Shown here one piece after another: positions 27,981 through 35,962 of a stretch of DNA of 39,168 nucleotides. The notes below the pieces were generated by a model. That model searched no databases, had not been told where the DNA came from, and worked only from the letters and a program-made list of their open reading frames with translations. The position numbers were made by a program, and so were the translations under genes. The stretch's first letter is position 1. Every line of letters begins with the position of its first letter. Source of the DNA: Pelodictyon luteolum (GTDB lineage: Bacteria; Bacteroidota; Chlorobiia; Chlorobiales; Chlorobiaceae); NCBI GenBank assembly GCA_020721225.1, contig DYNE01000022.1, positions 1-39,168 on the forward strand. The letters are read 5' to 3'.

Positions 27981-28886
27981 TCAGGAGAAAACCCTGAGAG
28001 CGCCGGGAACAACCGAAATCCTGATTTTTCCCTGGATATGCTCAAAAACCTCTCCGTCCATGTGCATCATTTCCGAATCCGGAATCGTAACTTCGACCGA
28101 GCTGGCCTTGCAGTAGATAACCCTGGAATCAAAAATCTGACTACCCCGGAGATACTTGATGACATAACCCAAAAACAATACATTCGGAATGGATTTCAGA
28201 ATACATACATCAAGGAGCCCATCTGCAGGATCGGCTTCAGGCGCAATACGAAATTTCCCGCCTTCGACTTTTCCGTTCGAGACAGAAAAAGCAAAAACAG
28301 GCTCATGCATTTCATAAACAGAATCCGGAGAAGTGATTTTAATATGCATTTTTAACGGAGTATAACCAATGAGAACGCTGAAAAGGGCATGTATATAACC
28401 AAGCTCTCCTTTCGCCCAGATTGTCCGTCTGACCGTTCCTGCGATTCTTCCGGTAAAACCGATACCGAGAGAATTCACAAAATAACGGTGCTTGTCTCCG
28501 TTAAAAAGAACGCTTCCCAGATCAACCGTTCTGCTTTGTCCGGAAAAACAAGCCGGCATGTTCTTCACTGCACTCCCGCCATGCTGCAACGTCTTGATAA
28601 AATCGTTAGCGGATCCAATGGGAATGACTCCTATCGGCAAATCACTGCCAAACGATGCATTAACCACTTCATGAAGTGTTCCATCTCCACCGCAGGCAAC
28701 CAGACAGTCGCTCTCCTGACAAGCCTCGCGCGCAATATCACCCGCATGCCCCGCATAGGCAGTACGTTTCACGACGGCGGCGTGCATGCCCGAAACCATA
28801 TTCCTGAGCCAGGGCTCCCGCACTGCAGCGCGCCCTTTATCGGCAGCCGGGTTAAAAATAAAGGTATAACGCAACGTATCCATCAC
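27981..28886 (-). CDS. Diacylglycerol kinase-like lipid kinase (YegS/DgkB family)
   Basis: The 301-residue product begins with the FIFNPAADKG segment and has the catalytic CGGDGTLHEVVN motif (GGDGT at 66-70) and IGVIPIGSANDFIK, the signatures of the diacylglycerol kinase catalytic domain. The C-terminal part has the usual second domain (PEADPADGLLDVCI). It probably phosphorylates a membrane lipid such as diacylglycerol, on the cytoplasmic face. The first codon overlaps the phosphatase stop (ATGA), so the two are translationally coupled. Confidence 0.92.
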   Translation of the reverse strand: MMDTLRYTFIFNPAADKGRAAVREPWLRNMVSGMHAAVVKRTAYAGHAGDIAREACQESDCLVACGGDGTLHEVVNASFGSDLPIGVIPIGSANDFIKTLQHGGSAVKNMPACFSGQSRTVDLGSVLFNGDKHRYFVNSLGIGFTGRIAGTVRRTIWAKGELGYIHALFSVLIGYTPLKMHIKITSPDSVYEMHEPVFAFSVSNGKVEGGKFRIAPEADPADGLLDVCILKSIPNVLFLGYVIKYLRGSQIFDSRVIYCKASSVEVTIPDSEMMHMDGEVFEHIQGKIRISVVPGALRVFS

Positions 28887-29404
28887 TTCACCTTCTGAAA
28901 AGCATTTTGGGTATAAACGGGTGACCCCTCATCACAAAAGGCTACCAGATTTCGAAGAATATGATCGGAAGCAAGAAAAAGATCATCCCGGACCTGTTCG
29001 AACTCCCTGTACGTCCCATAATAGGGATCCTGAATTTCTTCATCCGCGCGCCCCGGTACGAACGACATCACGAGTCGAACTCTCGGCTTTTCGCAAAACC
29101 CGGTCAACCTGCTTACATCCTCATAATTCTCGCAGTCCATCACAAAAATCCAGTCGTAATCAAACAGATCGAGTTCATCGATACCACGAGCACAAATCGA
29201 CGATATATCAACGCCGACACGAGCCGTTGCAGCAGCAGATCGTGGATCCGGCGATGAACCCTGCTGATAAGAGCGGGTACCCGCTGACTCGACAGAAAAT
29301 AAATGGCCAAAGCCATACCTTTCCACGTAACTGTAAAAAATACCCTCAGCCATGGGAGAACGGCAGATATTTTCATAACAGACAAATAAAATCCTGATAG
29401 CCAC
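28883..29404 (-). CDS. Low-molecular-weight protein tyrosine phosphatase family protein
   Basis: From a proposed GTG start at 29404 the product is 173 residues with the P-loop VCYENICRSPMAEG (Cys9, Arg15) and the general-acid region DPYYGTYREFEQVRDD near the C-terminus. This family dephosphorylates tyrosine residues, often acting with bacterial tyrosine kinases in polysaccharide export; arsenate reductase relatives are the main alternative. The frame remains open up to a TTG at 29476, and no ribosome binding site decides the start. It is the first gene of a five-gene minus-strand operon ending with the LOG gene. Confidence 0.87.
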   Translation of the reverse strand: MAIRILFVCYENICRSPMAEGIFYSYVERYGFGHLFSVESAGTRSYQQGSSPDPRSAAATARVGVDISSICARGIDELDLFDYDWIFVMDCENYEDVSRLTGFCEKPRVRLVMSFVPGRADEEIQDPYYGTYREFEQVRDDLFLASDHILRNLVAFCDEGSPVYTQNAFQKVK

Positions 29405-29586
29405 TGGTGTTTTATTTACATTTATCAGCACAATACTACTTATACCTGATAAAAAATGATTATTTTTATCTATCAAAAGTCATTTTAATACAAGAAACAC
29501 ACCAATTCACTGTTAGAATCCATAGAATAAACAGGTAAAAGCAGTGCATCCCTCACAAAGGATTTCTATTAATCCGGAAAACCGCC
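29405..29586. promoter_or_regulatory. Divergent intergenic region, phosphatase operon and first twin regulator
   Basis: This AT-rich 182-base gap must contain the promoter of the minus-strand phosphatase operon and that of the plus-strand regulator at 29587. Codons of the extended phosphatase frame (29405-29476) may overlap it. No clear operator or hairpin is visible. Confidence 0.3.
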
Positions 29587-30789
29587 ATGAAACGATGCCC
29601 GGCATCACATCTCCCAATAAGAGAAGAGCCTGAATGGAGGGCAATCCACAACGACGGTGGATATGAAACCATTTTCAGACTTATCGGCAGCGATATCATT
29701 CATTGTAAACATCGATCAGATAACGGAAACATCGTTCTATCGAACATCGATTCAAAAAAATTCCTCTCCATTCTCGAAAATCTGAACCTGCTTCACAGGC
29801 CGATTTATCTGCTCATCGATTTGGAAAACGTAACCGACATCGGATACCAATACAGAAACGATTTCCTGAATTTTGCCTTTAACTGGGGTAAAAACATAAC
29901 GATGCTCGTTTTGTACAATGTACGCGACGAGATACGAAACCGTCTTGAATGTTTCAGCGCAATAGCTCCTGAAAAAATCCATATGACGTTTGCGAACAGC
30001 TATCGAGATGGACTTGATCTCATCCTGAAGCTACCCGAATACTCCTCTCTCGAAAAACCGGAACCCCTGGAAAAAAAAGAATCCGAACAGTTGAAAAACA
30101 GACTGCTCGCCTCCATCACGAGAATTTCGCTACTCGATCTGCTTGACCAACCCATTCAACCCTCGCCTGTCGAAAATGAGTATTATGCCTATTTTATGGC
30201 CGTGGAGGAGTTCCGCAAAGACATGATAAGCAAGCGAAAGGTCGATAGTGAACGAAAAAAAGAAATCCGGCAGGAATATGAACAGCACTATAAAGAGCAG
30301 CTTGCTGACCTGCAGCACAAAATCGATCTGCACAAAAAACAGGTACAAGATTACACAAACACACTGACGGCACTCAACAACGAAATTACTTTACGTAATG
30401 AAAAACTGATGCAGCTGAATGCTGTCGATGCAGAAAAAAAAACGATAGCCGAGCAGTTATGCAAGCAACTGCACTCCATTGACAAAAGCAACAATTTCGA
30501 AAAATTGTGCCCGGATATGTCTGATAAAAATCCGATCACCGAACACTACAATCTGAATCTGACCGCCAGCGATACCCGTTTCCTCGACCAACTGAAAAAA
30601 AAACACCCCTTTCTGACCAGCAACGATGTAAAAATCTGTCTGCTTGTCAGAAAAAACTACAGCACAAAAGTGATTGCCCGCCTCAATGCGACATCAACCA
30701 GAAGCATAGAAAGCATCCGGTACAGGTTGCATAAAAAACTCGGACTGCAAAAAAATCAATCAATTAAAGCGTATCTCTGCTGTTTTTAA
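29587..30789 (+). CDS. Twin regulator 1: novel N-terminal domain, coiled coil, LuxR-type HTH
   Basis: The 400-residue protein has no family name I recognise over its whole length. Residues about 15-155 form an alternating strand/helix domain (LIGSDIIH, RPIYLLIDLENV, ITMLVLYNVRDE, FSAIAPEKIHMTF), whose pattern resembles STAS/SpoIIAA-like domains, but this is inference. Residues about 205-290 are highly charged and helical, likely a coiled coil for dimerisation. Residues about 323-400 are an HTH of the LuxR/GerE type as found in Bacteroidetes/Chlorobi regulators (FLTSNDVKICLLVRKNYSTK, then VIARLNATSTRSIESIRYRL and HKKLGL). It has no receiver domain. A homologous gene follows 110 bases downstream. 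The ribosome binding site is weak. Confidence 0.75.
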   Translation: MKRCPASHLPIREEPEWRAIHNDGGYETIFRLIGSDIIHCKHRSDNGNIVLSNIDSKKFLSILENLNLLHRPIYLLIDLENVTDIGYQYRNDFLNFAFNWGKNITMLVLYNVRDEIRNRLECFSAIAPEKIHMTFANSYRDGLDLILKLPEYSSLEKPEPLEKKESEQLKNRLLASITRISLLDLLDQPIQPSPVENEYYAYFMAVEEFRKDMISKRKVDSERKKEIRQEYEQHYKEQLADLQHKIDLHKKQVQDYTNTLTALNNEITLRNEKLMQLNAVDAEKKTIAEQLCKQLHSIDKSNNFEKLCPDMSDKNPITEHYNLNLTASDTRFLDQLKKKHPFLTSNDVKICLLVRKNYSTKVIARLNATSTRSIESIRYRLHKKLGLQKNQSIKAYLCCF

Positions 30790-30821
30790 AAAATACAAAC
30801 GACAACAGTATTTTTTAAAAA
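30783..30821. promoter_or_regulatory. Perfect 14-bp inverted repeat between the twin regulator genes
   Basis: The arms TTTTTAAAAAATAC (30783-30796) and GTATTTTTTAAAAA (30808-30821) are exact reverse complements with an 11-base loop. The left arm overlaps the stop codon of twin regulator 1. It could be a terminator hairpin, since a T-run lies in the right arm, or an operator for autoregulation of twin regulator 2, whose start is 79 bases downstream. It contains few G/C pairs, so it would be a weak terminator. Confidence 0.55.
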
Positions 30822-30899
30822 AAAACGATAACAATCTTTGACTACTTTAAAATAATTCGCCATATTACTTTTTATATCACGTCAGAGAATCTATAAACC

Positions 30900-32132
30900 G
30901 TGAATAAGCAATGTTTAATGAGTAAAGAAGTCACACTGGAGTTGCCGGTTACCGAAAAAACACACTGGAAAAACGAACACAAACAGGCAGGATACACCAA
31001 ACACATCAAGCTCATCGGTCAGGATATTATTCACAGCTCCGTAGAAGCCCATCATGATATTACGCTGGACAGTATGGATAGCGAGCTTTTCAAAACCGTT
31101 CTGAAAGAAACCGGCCTGATCGACCTCCCTGTTCACTGCGTCTGGGACTTTACTCATGTGGCTGAAGTTTCCTATACTTATAAAAAATCTATAACCGCAT
31201 TACTTTATAATTGGAACCCTCAGTTCCGTTTGATTGTTTTTTACAATGTAAAGGATTCTGTGCGTATTGTAGTCGAAACTTTTGCGGCAGTAGTGCCGGA
31301 GAATATCGTTGTTTTGATTACCGACAATTATCGGCAAGCCATCGACGCCATTCTTGAATACAATAAAGGCATTGCTCCGGAACCCGAGCCACTGTCACAT
31401 GCCGACGTAATGAAAAAAAATTTTCTTGCCTATCTGGCAAGAATGTCGTGGTTCGATATGTTCGAGGAACATATTGCCGTACCAGAGTTCAACGACAGTT
31501 ATTACACGTTTTTTAAAGCAATTGAAGCCATGCAGGCTGACCTTCGTGAAAAAGAAAAAGAAAAAGCAATGGAACTTGAACAAATGAAACAGGACAATGA
31601 GCAGAAAATAACCGAAGCGGTTATCAAACTGAATGCTCAGATCGAGCTCAACAAAAAGCAGACGCGGGAATTTGAAAAGGAAGTGGCTGAACTGAAATCG
31701 CGAATTGCTAATCAGGATATGGAGCTGACCAGAGTTTCTACGGCAATTGCAGAAAAAACAACTGCACTGCGTAATCTGCTCGATCAGATCTATGCTCTCG
31801 ATATAGATCAGGATGTCAAACGGCAGATGACCGACTCCTGCCTGAGCCTTATTGAAACGGAAACTATTGAAAAACGACTCAACATTGAACTGACCGAATC
31901 GGATTCCGTTTTTCTCTCAAAGCTGCAGAAAAAGCATCCCAATCTGAACCAGCGCGAGCTGCGTATCAGCCTGCTGGTTAAACTGAATTACGACACAAAA
32001 GAAATTGCCCGTTCGGTAGGGATTTCAACACGTGGCATGGAAAGCATCCGCTATAGAATGCATAAAAAGCTTGGTCTTGGAAAGCATCAGTCCATCAAGA
32101 CCTATCTTTCCGATCTGGCCGTTATATTTTAG
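30900..32132 (+). CDS. Twin regulator 2: paralogue of the preceding gene with LuxR-type HTH
   Basis: The 410-residue product is a clear paralogue of the upstream gene with the same layout. Shared landmarks are GY at about residue 32, LIGxDIIH, DSxxF, FYNVKD versus LYNVRD, PENI versus PEKI, YRxxxDxIL, the charged coiled coil (about 210-310), and the C-terminal HTH (RELRISLLVKLNYDTKEIAR, then SVGISTRGMESIRYRM). Between the paralogues the N-terminal domain has diverged much more than the HTH, suggesting different signals and similar DNA targets. The frame starts at GTG 30900; ATG 30918 is an alternative. No kinase or receiver gene is nearby, so the input is unknown. Confidence 0.75.
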   Translation: MNKQCLMSKEVTLELPVTEKTHWKNEHKQAGYTKHIKLIGQDIIHSSVEAHHDITLDSMDSELFKTVLKETGLIDLPVHCVWDFTHVAEVSYTYKKSITALLYNWNPQFRLIVFYNVKDSVRIVVETFAAVVPENIVVLITDNYRQAIDAILEYNKGIAPEPEPLSHADVMKKNFLAYLARMSWFDMFEEHIAVPEFNDSYYTFFKAIEAMQADLREKEKEKAMELEQMKQDNEQKITEAVIKLNAQIELNKKQTREFEKEVAELKSRIANQDMELTRVSTAIAEKTTALRNLLDQIYALDIDQDVKRQMTDSCLSLIETETIEKRLNIELTESDSVFLSKLQKKHPNLNQRELRISLLVKLNYDTKEIARSVGISTRGMESIRYRMHKKLGLGKHQSIKTYLSDLAVIF

Positions 32133-33357: not shown

Positions 33358-33744
33358 TCACACGCATGGCTCTTCTTCGCGTCCATATCTCAGGTGCTCT
33401 TCGTTGACACAGAGCGCTTCACTGAACCTCCTGGCCATAGCATCGGAATACGTGCGGCGACCGCATTCGTAATCGCTGACCATGCTCTGGCGAATCCCGA
33501 GCTTTTCGGCGAGTTGCGCTTGTGTCATACCCGCTTTGAGGCGAGCGCCTGCAAGGAGATTGCCCACGCGGTTCTTCTCCATCTCTTTCCAATACTCTGT
33601 GCTCTCGATGGCGACATACTCGTCCTCCGGATTTTCAGCGAGTACCGTAACCTCGTACTTCTTCCTGATCCATTCAACAAGTTCGCTCACATTTTCACCC
33701 TGGAGCGAAATTTCAATACGGGGCTTTTTCACGAGAGCCAACAT
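33358..33744 (-). CDS. XRE-family antitoxin (HigA-like)
   Basis: The 128-residue product has a beta-rich N-terminal half (KPRIEISLQGENVSELVEWI) and a C-terminal XRE helix-turn-helix (MTQAQLAEKLGIRQSMVSDY). It is encoded just after and overlapping a RelE-type toxin by 32 bases, the HigBA order. It should bind the toxin and repress the operon. The N-terminal extension before the HTH is longer than in the simplest HigA proteins. Confidence 0.85.
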   Translation of the reverse strand: MLALVKKPRIEISLQGENVSELVEWIRKKYEVTVLAENPEDEYVAIESTEYWKEMEKNRVGNLLAGARLKAGMTQAQLAEKLGIRQSMVSDYECGRRTYSDAMARRFSEALCVNEEHLRYGREEEPCV

Positions 33745-33979
33745 AATACACCTCTATCTCTATTTCATTTTTCCGGCATGTCCAGCACGCCACATACCGG
33801 TAATTCAAGTGACAGTGATAACGCTCTTCTCCAAGAGGCGAAAAGTTGTGCCAGCTTTTCTGTATAGGGCCATCCACCTGAAGTTCAGCGACAAGGAGGA
33901 AGAAAAGCTGCTGAACGTCGGATGGCAACTTGCGCAAACCTCGCTCGACCTTTCTTTTGATTCGTACATTATAGCGCAT
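33713..33979 (-). CDS. RelE/HigB-type toxin
   Basis: From ATG 33979 the product is 88 residues, basic, with an N-terminal helix region (RIKRKVERGLRKLPSDVQQL) and a C-terminal beta-sheet (YHCHLNYRYVACWTCRKNEI) ending VYYVGSREKAPY, typical of a RelE-superfamily cytotoxic translational repressor group. ATG 33982 is equally possible; the frame extends to 34030 but without family-like residues. The overlap with the antitoxin gene indicates a coupled toxin-antitoxin operon. The promoter should lie in 33980-34100. Confidence 0.85.
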   Translation of the reverse strand: MRYNVRIKRKVERGLRKLPSDVQQLFFLLVAELQVDGPIQKSWHNFSPLGEERYHCHLNYRYVACWTCRKNEIEIEVYYVGSREKAPY

Positions 33980-33995
33980 CATGGTAATAATATAA

Positions 33996-34419
33996 CCACC
34001 ATATAAGCGTTGCGCAAGGTATATCAGCAAACTTGAGGACGTTCATGAATTCATTACATTCCGGGTAAACCACCCGCCCCCGCCCGATTTTGATTTCGAG
34101 GAACAAGAAAATCCACAAGACTCGCAAGCCCTATGGGTTTCATTGTTTACAGCCGATTCTCCGGAACCACACAAGCACCCGAAGCAGTGAAGCCGCTTTA
34201 TTTCTCCTCTTTCCGCCTCCGGCAGTTCTACCCTGATGTGCAGATCCTTGAGCTGCTGGAGTGTGATTTCGGAGGGGGCGGATATCTTGACTGGACTAAG
34301 CGGTCAAGCCGGATTGGGAATAGCAATAAAACCAAATGAGACGTTCCACTCCTGACGTAGAAAGAATACTGTACTTTTCATACTTTGCATACCCTCAGTC
34401 ACTTACGTCCATCATTGAC
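33996..34419. other. Intergenic stretch with coding-like fragments
   Basis: No intact gene is seen. On the plus strand an open frame without ATG from 33996 to the stop at 34188-34190 reads a protein-like tail (LEDVHEFITFRVNHPPPPDF, then DFEEQENPQDSQALWV). On the minus strand about 34200-34290 reads APSEITLQQLKDLHIRVELP, which resembles the tail of aspartyl-tRNA synthetases. Both look like gene debris. The region also holds the promoter of the RelE/XRE pair. Confidence 0.35.
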
Positions 34420-34644
34420 GATTTGGGTGCTGCAGCTCGCCGGGCAACTCGGCAAGCTCGTTTCTCTGAAGCGGATCTCCATAACCGTTCCGCACACCTC
34501 TTCGCCGCCCGTCGCGCCAATTCTTCCTCCTCGTGGCAGCACTATTGACTTCAGGTTTTCATGAGGTTATCCCATACATCCCGAATATTTCTAACGGCAA
34601 AACACAATCTCCTACGCTATTGCACTGCGTCCCATCGACTCTGA
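34420..34644 (-). repeat. Island repeat copy 2
   Basis: About 225 bases with both halves: the coding-like part (minus-strand DPLQRNELAELPGEL) and the distal part containing TATCCCATACATCCCGAATA and ACGCTATTGCACTGCGTCCC on the plus strand. It lies upstream, in minus-strand sense, of the RelE/XRE pair. Confidence 0.85.
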
Positions 34645-34694
34645 CATTCAGGTTTTGAACGATTATACCTTGTAAAGGTACAGGTTTCTCCTCA

Positions 34695-34914
34695 GATTTT
34701 GAACCGGCGCAGCATCTCGCCGGGCAGCTCGGCAGGCTCTTTTCTCCAAAGCGGATCTTCTTAACCGTACCGTACACCTCTTCGCCGCCCGCCGGGTCAA
34801 GTCAGCTCCTCGTGGCAGCACTATTGACTTCAGGTTTTCATGAGGTTATCCCATACATCCTGAATATTTCTAACGGCAAAACACAATCCTCTACGCTATT
34901 GCACTGCGTCCCCT
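34695..34914 (-). repeat. Island repeat copy 3
   Basis: About 220 bases, same orientation as copy 2 and 50 bases from it. The minus-strand frame reads DPLWRKEPAELPGEMLRRFK, then Ile and a stop. It belongs with copy 5 to a subtype with GGCAGGCTCTTTTCTC and CTTCTTAAC in place of GGCAAGCTCGTTTCTC and CTCCATAAC. Confidence 0.85.
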
Positions 34915-35016
34915 TTACTTATTTATCTGCACCTCCCGAATATTTCATCAGAACGATTGGCTTATGTATTGCGATTCGTATATTCCGGTAAATTGCCGTA
35001 CAAAACAAGAGCCATC
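34915..35016 (+). promoter_or_regulatory. Upstream region of the TacA/TacT-like pair
   Basis: This 102-base AT-rich stretch between repeat copy 3 and the antitoxin start should carry the operon promoter and the antitoxin operator. A near-inverted pair CCGGTAAATTGCCG lies about 30 bases before the ATG. No clear -35/-10 pair could be fixed. Confidence 0.3.
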
Positions 35017-35445
35017 ATGAAAACGAACGTAAAAGAACAAGGTAAAACCGCCACTCCAAAATCATCCGATACCGGAACAAGGCAGTCAAAGAGCATGAGT
35101 GGGGCAGCAAAAACAAACAAGAGTGTCGGCACTCTCAAGTCTGCTGCACGGAAAGATGCAAAGCAAAGCAGTGAGAGCAAAGCCCGTCTTGAAGCGAGAA
35201 TCTCCAGGGCAACCCATACCCGGATAAAACTTGCCGCAGATATTCAGGGGAGAACAGTAACCGATTTTGTCGTTCATGCAGCACTCAATGCTGCCACAAA
35301 GGCAATCGAAGAAAATTTTGTCGTTCAGTTGTCAATGGAGGGACAAGAGGCTTTTGCCGAAGCCCTGCTGAATCCACCGGAACCAAATGACGCTCTTCGA
35401 CGTGCTTTCGAAAGGCATTCGGCACTTACAGGAAAGAACGACTGA
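35017..35445 (+). CDS. DUF1778 (TacA-like) ribbon-helix-helix antitoxin with long N-terminal extension
   Basis: From ATG 35017 the product is 142 residues. Residues 57-92 are the DUF1778 ribbon-helix-helix (ARLEARISRATHTRIKLAAD, then GRTVTDFVVHAAL). The C-terminus after residue 100 (MEGQEAFAEALLNPPEPNDA) is the toxin-neutralising tail. The first 55 residues are rich in Lys, Ser, Thr and Gly, look disordered, and are absent from typical family members of about 90 residues. The GNAT toxin follows 16 bases downstream. An upstream in-frame start at 34957 is unlikely. Confidence 0.88.
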   Translation: MKTNVKEQGKTATPKSSDTGTRQSKSMSGAAKTNKSVGTLKSAARKDAKQSSESKARLEARISRATHTRIKLAADIQGRTVTDFVVHAALNAATKAIEENFVVQLSMEGQEAFAEALLNPPEPNDALRRAFERHSALTGKND

Positions 35446-35461
35446 CCGGTCATCACTGCAC

Positions 35462-35962
35462 ATGAATGTCCCACGATTCTCGATCATCCCCTTCAACCGC
35501 GAACATCAGAAATCCGGATTCTGCTGCGGTTCAAGCCTGCTCGACCGATATTTTTCCGAACGTGTCGGCCAGGATGTTAGAAGGAATCTCACGAAGTGCT
35601 TTGTGGCGATCGATAACAGTCACGAACGAATTGCAGGTTTCTACACGCTTTCAGCAGCCCAGATCCCGTTGCTGCAACTGCCTGAAAAACTGGCCGACAA
35701 GATGCCCCATTATCATGCAGTACCGGCATCGAGACTGGGACGACTCGCCATCGATAAAAACTATCAGGGAGAGGGACTTGGATGCACGCTCATTGCAGAC
35801 GCACTGATGCGCTCATCAAGTTCTTCAATGGCTGTCTATGCATTGCTGGTCGATGCAAAAGACGAGAGCGCAGCGACGTTTTACCTGCACCATGGATTCA
35901 TTCCCTGTGTCGGTGCACCTCATACATTATTTCTGCCAATAGGCACACTCAGGAAACTCTGA
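35462..35962 (+). CDS. GNAT-family acetyltransferase toxin (TacT-like)
   Basis: The 166-residue product from ATG 35462 has the TacT-type N-terminus (FCCGSSLLDRYF) and the acetyl-CoA-binding RLGRLAIDKNYQGEGLG with QxxGxG at 102-107. A Tyr at 141 (TFYLHHGF) matches the catalytic Tyr position. TacT toxins acetylate aminoacyl-tRNA and stop translation; the antitoxin is encoded just upstream. The gene looks complete, so the pair may be active. Confidence 0.9.
   Translation: MNVPRFSIIPFNREHQKSGFCCGSSLLDRYFSERVGQDVRRNLTKCFVAIDNSHERIAGFYTLSAAQIPLLQLPEKLADKMPHYHAVPASRLGRLAIDKNYQGEGLGCTLIADALMRSSSSSMAVYALLVDAKDESAATFYLHHGFIPCVGAPHTLFLPIGTLRKL

Follow-up and report, generated by a model that had tools for sequence, protein, structure and literature searches.

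A tandem pair of putative STAS-like coiled-coil-HTH regulators at a family-restricted locus of Chlorobiaceae

The gene pair and its surroundings

The window analysed here is a stretch of 39,168 nucleotides from Pelodictyon luteolum (contig DYNE01000022.1, assembly GCA_020721225.1) and belongs to a 2.6-Mb Chlorobiaceae genome, whose close relatives among the records are Chlorobium and Chlorobaculum. It carries two intact open reading frames, gene 1 (P0001) and gene 2 (P0002), which run in the same orientation and are separated by 110 bp (Table 1). Their products are paralogues with 34% identity over nearly the full length (E 1e-73), in line with the tandem regulators described in the first-pass annotation of this DNA. 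For gene 2, the ATG at 30918 is likely the better start, because the orthologues begin there, and would give a protein of 404 aa.

Table 1. Features of the gene pair and its conserved neighbours; positions refer to the window.
Feature	Position	Strand	Basis or remark
YegS/DAGK-like lipid kinase, divergent conserved neighbour	27981-28886	-	sequence recognition
LMW-type phosphatase, divergent conserved neighbour	28883-29476	-	sequence recognition
Gene 1 (P0001), 400 aa: predicted STAS-like domain, linker, coiled coil, LuxR/GerE-type HTH	29587-30789	+	fast-evolving upstream paralogue
Gene 1 N-terminal STAS-like domain (predicted), residues about 9-151	29611-30039	+	in 53-row alignment A1; A1 model E 8.9e-68; fold modelled on the gene 2 domain
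Gene 1 HTH	30565-30786	+	61% identical to gene 2 HTH
Perfect inverted repeat, 14-nt arms, 11-nt loop, overlapping the gene 1 stop	30783-30821	+	candidate operator or weak A/U terminator
Gene 2 promoter, sigma-70-like (TTGACT, 17-nt spacer, CATATT)	30838-30866	+	conserved in relatives
+1 element ATATTAC-N7-ATCACGTCA (written ATATTAC-N7-AWCACGTCA), over the -10 box and probable start site	30862-30884	+	
Gene 2 (P0002), 410 aa from GTG: predicted STAS-like domain, linker, coiled coil, HTH	30900-32132	+	
Gene 2 N-terminal STAS-like domain (predicted), residues about 15-155	30942-31364	+	AlphaFold pLDDT 89.9; structure match
Gene 2 conserved helical linker, residues 156-215, FLAxxARxSW...PxxxxxYxxFKA	31365-31544	+	alignment, model
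Gene 2 long helix, predicted coiled coil, residues about 217-299	31548-31796	+	helix 2-84 of the C-terminal model
Gene 2 LuxR/GerE-type HTH, residues about 333-410	31896-32129	+	

The similarity between the two proteins is unevenly distributed. It amounts to 33% in the N-terminal domain, 27% in the linker and 25% in the coiled coil, as against 61% in the helix-turn-helix (HTH), and 12 of 15 residues (80%) are identical in the recognition-helix segment. The earlier remark that the N-terminal domains have diverged more than the HTH is thus confirmed, with the coiled coil as the most diverged part of all. Given the conservation of the HTH and of its recognition segment, both proteins likely read the same DNA, so that the common target proposed before probably exists. 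A third, partly contained homologue of the pair is located at the edge of contig C32.

The pair occupies a slot that is syntenic across the Chlorobiaceae and holds one or two regulators. It is flanked on one side by a block of LOG-like, PabA, GlmU-like, lipid kinase and LMW phosphatase genes and on the other by an ALDH-RsgA-RecG block; these functional names stem from sequence recognition and not from a profile search. The content of the slot varies among relatives and comprises two full-length genes, one full-length gene, a full-length and a short gene, one short gene or two short genes, with tandem pairs being common in the sister genus; Chlorobaculum is a genus that carries such a pair. Downstream of the pair, at 33358-35962 of the window, we noticed by eye a cluster of toxin-antitoxin-like open reading frames, namely an HTH antitoxin-like protein with a small partner and a DUF1778-like with a GNAT-like protein. 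No study of STAS-like coiled-coil-HTH regulators in Chlorobiaceae was found in the open-access literature, and we consider this a real, family-restricted and unstudied gene-control locus.

Fold and kinship of the two protein halves

The N-terminal domain had been described as sensor-like, without a family name, and profile searches left it nameless: no credible Pfam match was obtained for it alone or across 53 homologues, including STAS (PF01740) and SpoIIAA-like (PF11964), nor was there a match in NCBIfam. Solved structures related to it by sequence were not found, and neither were viral relatives. A named sensor other than a receiver domain was rejected on the basis of the Pfam and NCBIfam searches, and a receiver domain because Pfam gave no Response_reg match and the structure resembles STAS instead. 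In the AlphaFold model built from the 53-row alignment (mean pLDDT 89.9, pTM 0.84), the order of strands and helices points to the STAS/SpoIIAA fold, a mixed beta sheet with alternating helices. Its best structural match was the SpoIIAA-like (DUF3478) protein 2q3l with a Z of 11.0 (3.0 A over 117 residues), tied with SpoIIAA itself (1tid, Z 10.8; both by VIA). RsbS, the STAS domains of SulP/SLC26 transporters and other antagonists followed, many STAS structures scoring Z 9.2-11.0 and STAS proteins making up almost all of the best-ranked matches, and the confident Foldseek matches (probability >=0.9) were STAS-like proteins or STAS-bearing transporters. The model therefore places the domain in the STAS fold, as had been suspected from the sequence. 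The statement that no kinase, receiver or ligand-binding family is recognizable still holds for sequence comparison but not for the fold, by which the domain is STAS-like.

Kinship to STAS or SpoIIAA-like families was not detectable in the sequence. Profile-profile comparison by hhalign yielded a probability of 15% against 15 Bacteroidota STAS sequences and of 0.6% against 20 Bacteroidota SpoIIAA-like sequences, compared to 12% for an unrelated control, and a single SpoIIAA sequence gave no alignment. The best STAS alignment, at that probability of 15% and in the sole register obtained, nevertheless agrees with the register that the fold would predict. In this weak alignment the phosphoserine position of SpoIIAA, at the start of helix 2, corresponds to Y92, which is Tyr or Phe in 50/53 sequences, and the glycine following the phosphoserine corresponds to Y94, beside K95. 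The DSSG motif of SpoIIAA/RsbV thus appears to be replaced by SYxYK, and a SpoIIAA-type switch serine has likely been lost, although S91, one residue ahead of Y92, is Ser or Thr in 41/53. The polar and aromatic positions conserved in the domain are H45 (51/53), Y94 and K95 (50/53 each), Y144 (49/53) and N116 (48/53).

The model of the C-terminal half (pLDDT 90.9) shows a helix of ~83 residues, which is followed by another helix and a four-helix HTH. The first, long and charged helix agrees with the coiled coil claimed earlier, and it is from this helix that we infer both the coiled coil and dimerisation. The HTH model superimposes on the C-terminal domain of DosR (Z 9.8, 2.3 A over 65 residues; Foldseek/VIA), followed by LiaR, VraR, VpsT and NarL, and is accordingly of the NarL/LuxR four-helix type in the model. 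By sequence, the LuxR-type assignment of the first-pass annotation received a weak Pfam GerE match for gene 2 (E 0.005, 17.0 bits, below the gathering score of 23.5) and none for gene 1; the missed threshold concerns recognition by the profile and not the fold, and the HTH is related in sequence to GerE-positive Bacteroidota proteins. Distant homologues of the C-terminal half in other Bacteroidota (24-39% identity) are the C-termini of Reg_prop/Y_Y_Y propeller and TPR proteins. Attached elsewhere to propellers or TPRs, this half is thus an output module of general use that is combined with different inputs, of which the STAS-like domain is the Chlorobiaceae version.

Promoter elements and relatives without the sensor domain

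Two cis-elements of this locus are candidate operators. The inverted repeat at 30783-30821, pointed out before as a possible binding site, is real, with perfect 14-bp arms around an 11-nt loop. Within the 2.6-Mb genome its core, AAAATAC-N5..14-GTATTTT, is confined to this one place, and the relative G032 has it solely at the orthologous position; the repeat is common to close relatives only. An ordinary intrinsic terminator was not called here because the stem is nearly all A-U. As RNA, the repeat forms an A-U hairpin of -9.2 kcal/mol that folds better than shuffled sequences (z -3.2), which leaves room for a weak terminator. It is possibly an operator or a weak terminator.

Most of the genus shares not this repeat but the element at 30862-30884, referred to below as the +1 element. 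In the alignment of upstream regions, only the -35 box, the -10 box and, where transcription is expected to start, the AACACGTCA block are conserved. The one exact site in the 2.6-Mb genome is gene 2's own promoter, and a regulon search in the same genome returned one site with two mismatches, equal to the control count. With at most one mismatch, 48 of 86 family genomes contain the element, most of them a single time (6 matches for the reversed control pattern). Comparison with the homologue list was possible for 30 cases, and in 29 of these the element stands directly upstream of a family gene, among them the two members of the short tandem pair in G017. Gene 2 thus seems to possess a dedicated promoter with an overlapping candidate operator, for which autoregulation is the simplest and most likely reading. 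However, the element is no palindrome, contrary to the expectation for a GerE-type dimer, it could be merely a conserved promoter, and it is nearly absent from the sister genus (2/21 genomes with <=1 mismatch), where another sequence takes its position. Upstream of the gene 2 orthologues at L016, L026, L027, L030, L031 and L034-L036, AACACCTG...CAGGTGT replaces the +1 element; it is an inverted repeat of lux-box-like half-sites ~35 bp apart, just past the -10 box. In short copies such as L037, L063 and L068, a leader of ~100-320 nt separates the +1 element from the reading frame, and control at the RNA level is possible there.

A profile search detected the N-terminal domain in 78 of 394 genomes of the phylum, all from two Chlorobiaceae genera and none from outside the Chlorobiaceae. 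In a 61-genome set, almost every copy continues into the same coiled-coil-HTH, the exceptions being fragments that are short or at contig edges and the split first gene of G001. In the latter (L112:5012-6231), the first tandem gene consists of two overlapping reading frames, split just after the N-terminal domain, so that the STAS-like domain and the coiled-coil-HTH are encoded separately; a frameshift and an assembly error are both possible. Two full-length homologues, L126:3185-4858 (557 aa) and L132:3-1607 (534 aa, open at the contig end), have ~120-145 extra residues before the N-terminal domain, although the start of the reading frame may be over-called.

Seven genomes of the genus, each at least 97% complete, lack the N-terminal domain. 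The three of the domain-free genomes that were checked (G012, G017, G021) encode only short coiled-coil-HTH proteins of 155-216 aa. Most short forms at this locus (~167 aa) are 82-88% identical to the C-terminal half of gene 2, and full-length paralogues encoded by those genomes are often less similar to it. The N-terminal domain is therefore dispensable, as these copies exist without it. In a tree of the C-terminal half, short and full-length forms interleave, many nodes being weakly supported, which suggests that the domain was lost repeatedly, or exchanged. In many genomes the short-form slot is followed by a FIST protein (confirmed by Pfam; L037, L039-L042, L102, L110, L113, L117-L120) and often then by a hybrid histidine kinase; next to slots occupied by full-length forms alone, a FIST gene was not observed. 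This suggests that input may be supplied in trans where the STAS-like domain is missing.

Proposed mechanism, alternatives and known systems

Building on the computed features, i.e. domain layout, folds, kinship, synteny, dispensability of the N-terminal domain and the gene-specific element, we consider it fairly probable that the pair encodes autoregulating one-component paralogues with a STAS input, a coiled-coil dimer and a NarL/LuxR-type HTH that share operators. Each subunit would consist of the STAS-fold input, the conserved helical linker, the long coiled coil that dimerises the protein, and the HTH. A small molecule or partner protein would probably bind the STAS domain near the conserved Y94-K95, N116 and Y144, a candidate site, and thereby alter the coiled coil and hence DNA binding. 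Both paralogues and the short forms of relatives would recognise the same DNA, resulting in competition or mixed dimers, and gene 2, transcribed from its own promoter, would be autoregulated via the element over its -10/+1 region. We infer the signal, sign of regulation, targets, identity of the operator and paralogue competition from this arrangement. The proposal is supported by CapS, a precedent for DNA binding under STAS control (PMC13373217). A more far-reaching version, which we put forward only tentatively and would sooner doubt than assert, is that an undescribed Chlorobiaceae STAS-fold sensor with a ligand site of its own instead of a phosphoserine drives transcription through the Bacteroidota coiled-coil-HTH, and that one autoregulated locus is tuned within the family as this sensor is kept, doubled or deleted, sensor-less forms being constitutive competitors for shared operators.

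It is unlikely that gene 1 is a decaying duplicate that no longer has a role, so that gene 2, or the short form, alone would matter. Its kin have long branches in the C-terminal tree and only 38-40% C-terminal identity even between near orthologues, its counterpart is split in G001, and no first gene was found in L006. Against this reading, gene 1 has an uninterrupted frame of 400 codons and retains 12/15 residues of the recognition segment, and tandem pairs are common in the sister genus.

SpoIIAA is acted on by SpoIIAB in partner switching. A corresponding switch at this locus, in which a GHKL anti-sigma-type kinase would phosphorylate or bind the STAS domain and so control dimerisation and DNA binding, appears improbable. 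The closeness of the fold to SpoIIAA-like and SpoIIAA structures, the Ser/Thr at S91 beside the aligned site, and the STAS-wHTH repressor CapS, which is controlled in this manner by CapK (PMC13373217), are in favour of it. On the other hand, the phosphoserine position is occupied by Tyr/Phe in the weak hhalign register, genomes with full-length forms showed no gene for a GHKL kinase next to the pair, and the hybrid histidine kinase at some short-form loci accompanies proteins without a STAS domain.

One special case of the STAS-input regulator, likewise improbable, would be a lipid or quinone sensor, in which a nonpolar cavity of the SpoIIAA-like (DUF3478)/CRAL-TRIO style opens for a hydrophobic ligand and makes transcription respond to membrane or redox state. 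The proposed opening of a cavity for nonpolar ligands in 2q3l (PMC2954212), the best structural match, and the conserved divergent lipid kinase make the hydrophobic signal an idea and not a result, given that the Z-scores of 2q3l and SpoIIAA are tied, no profile match to Bacteroidota SpoIIAA-like proteins exists, and the neighbourhood may be mere synteny.

For the favoured one-component regulators with a STAS input, several known systems offer comparison. The DUF3478 proteins (PF11964; 2q3l, 2ook) are the closest to the N-terminal domain in structure, but they are mostly single-domain proteins of ~120 aa without an HTH and without profile-level similarity to it. SpoIIAA and RsbV (STAS, PF01740) share its fold, but no significant sequence match was found, and the domain studied here is linked to a DNA-binding module, whereas those proteins act on an antagonist of a sigma factor. 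The Bacteroidota Reg_prop/Y_Y_Y and TPR-coiled-coil-HTH regulators have a related C-terminal output but receive their input through a propeller or TPRs, as opposed to a STAS-like domain or none. With the NarL/LuxR/GerE family (PF00196) the pair has the HTH fold and a weak sequence match in common; it scores below the Pfam gathering threshold, however, and has neither receiver nor autoinducer domain. Unlike two-component response regulators, it gives no Response_reg match, so that no receiver domain was detected.

STAS domains are known as protein-protein switches and transporter domains. CapS has added a further role, the direct control of a DNA-binding domain; in the present pair the fold is combined with another type of DNA-binding module. 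CapS, the STAS-wHTH repressor of the CapK/CapS pair, is dimeric, self-regulating and controlled by phosphorylation of its STAS serine; it has a length of about 184 aa, a winged helix of the MarR-like type and an absolutely conserved STAS serine, and its gene lies adjacent to that of a GHKL kinase (PMC13373217). By analogy, we regard it as the nearest known logic to the gene pair, in which an N-terminal STAS-fold domain is likewise predicted to control a C-terminal DNA-binding domain. The pair differs in its long coiled coil and LuxR/GerE-type HTH, in the apparent lack of a conserved serine and in having no GHKL kinase gene beside the full-length genes; it may therefore work like CapS without being one. 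A predicted STAS fold invisible to profiles is fused to an HTH across a family of phototrophs. The same HTH is available with and without the sensor, and together with a gene-specific promoter element, one candidate operator as a starting point, these natural variants make the regulatory logic directly testable.
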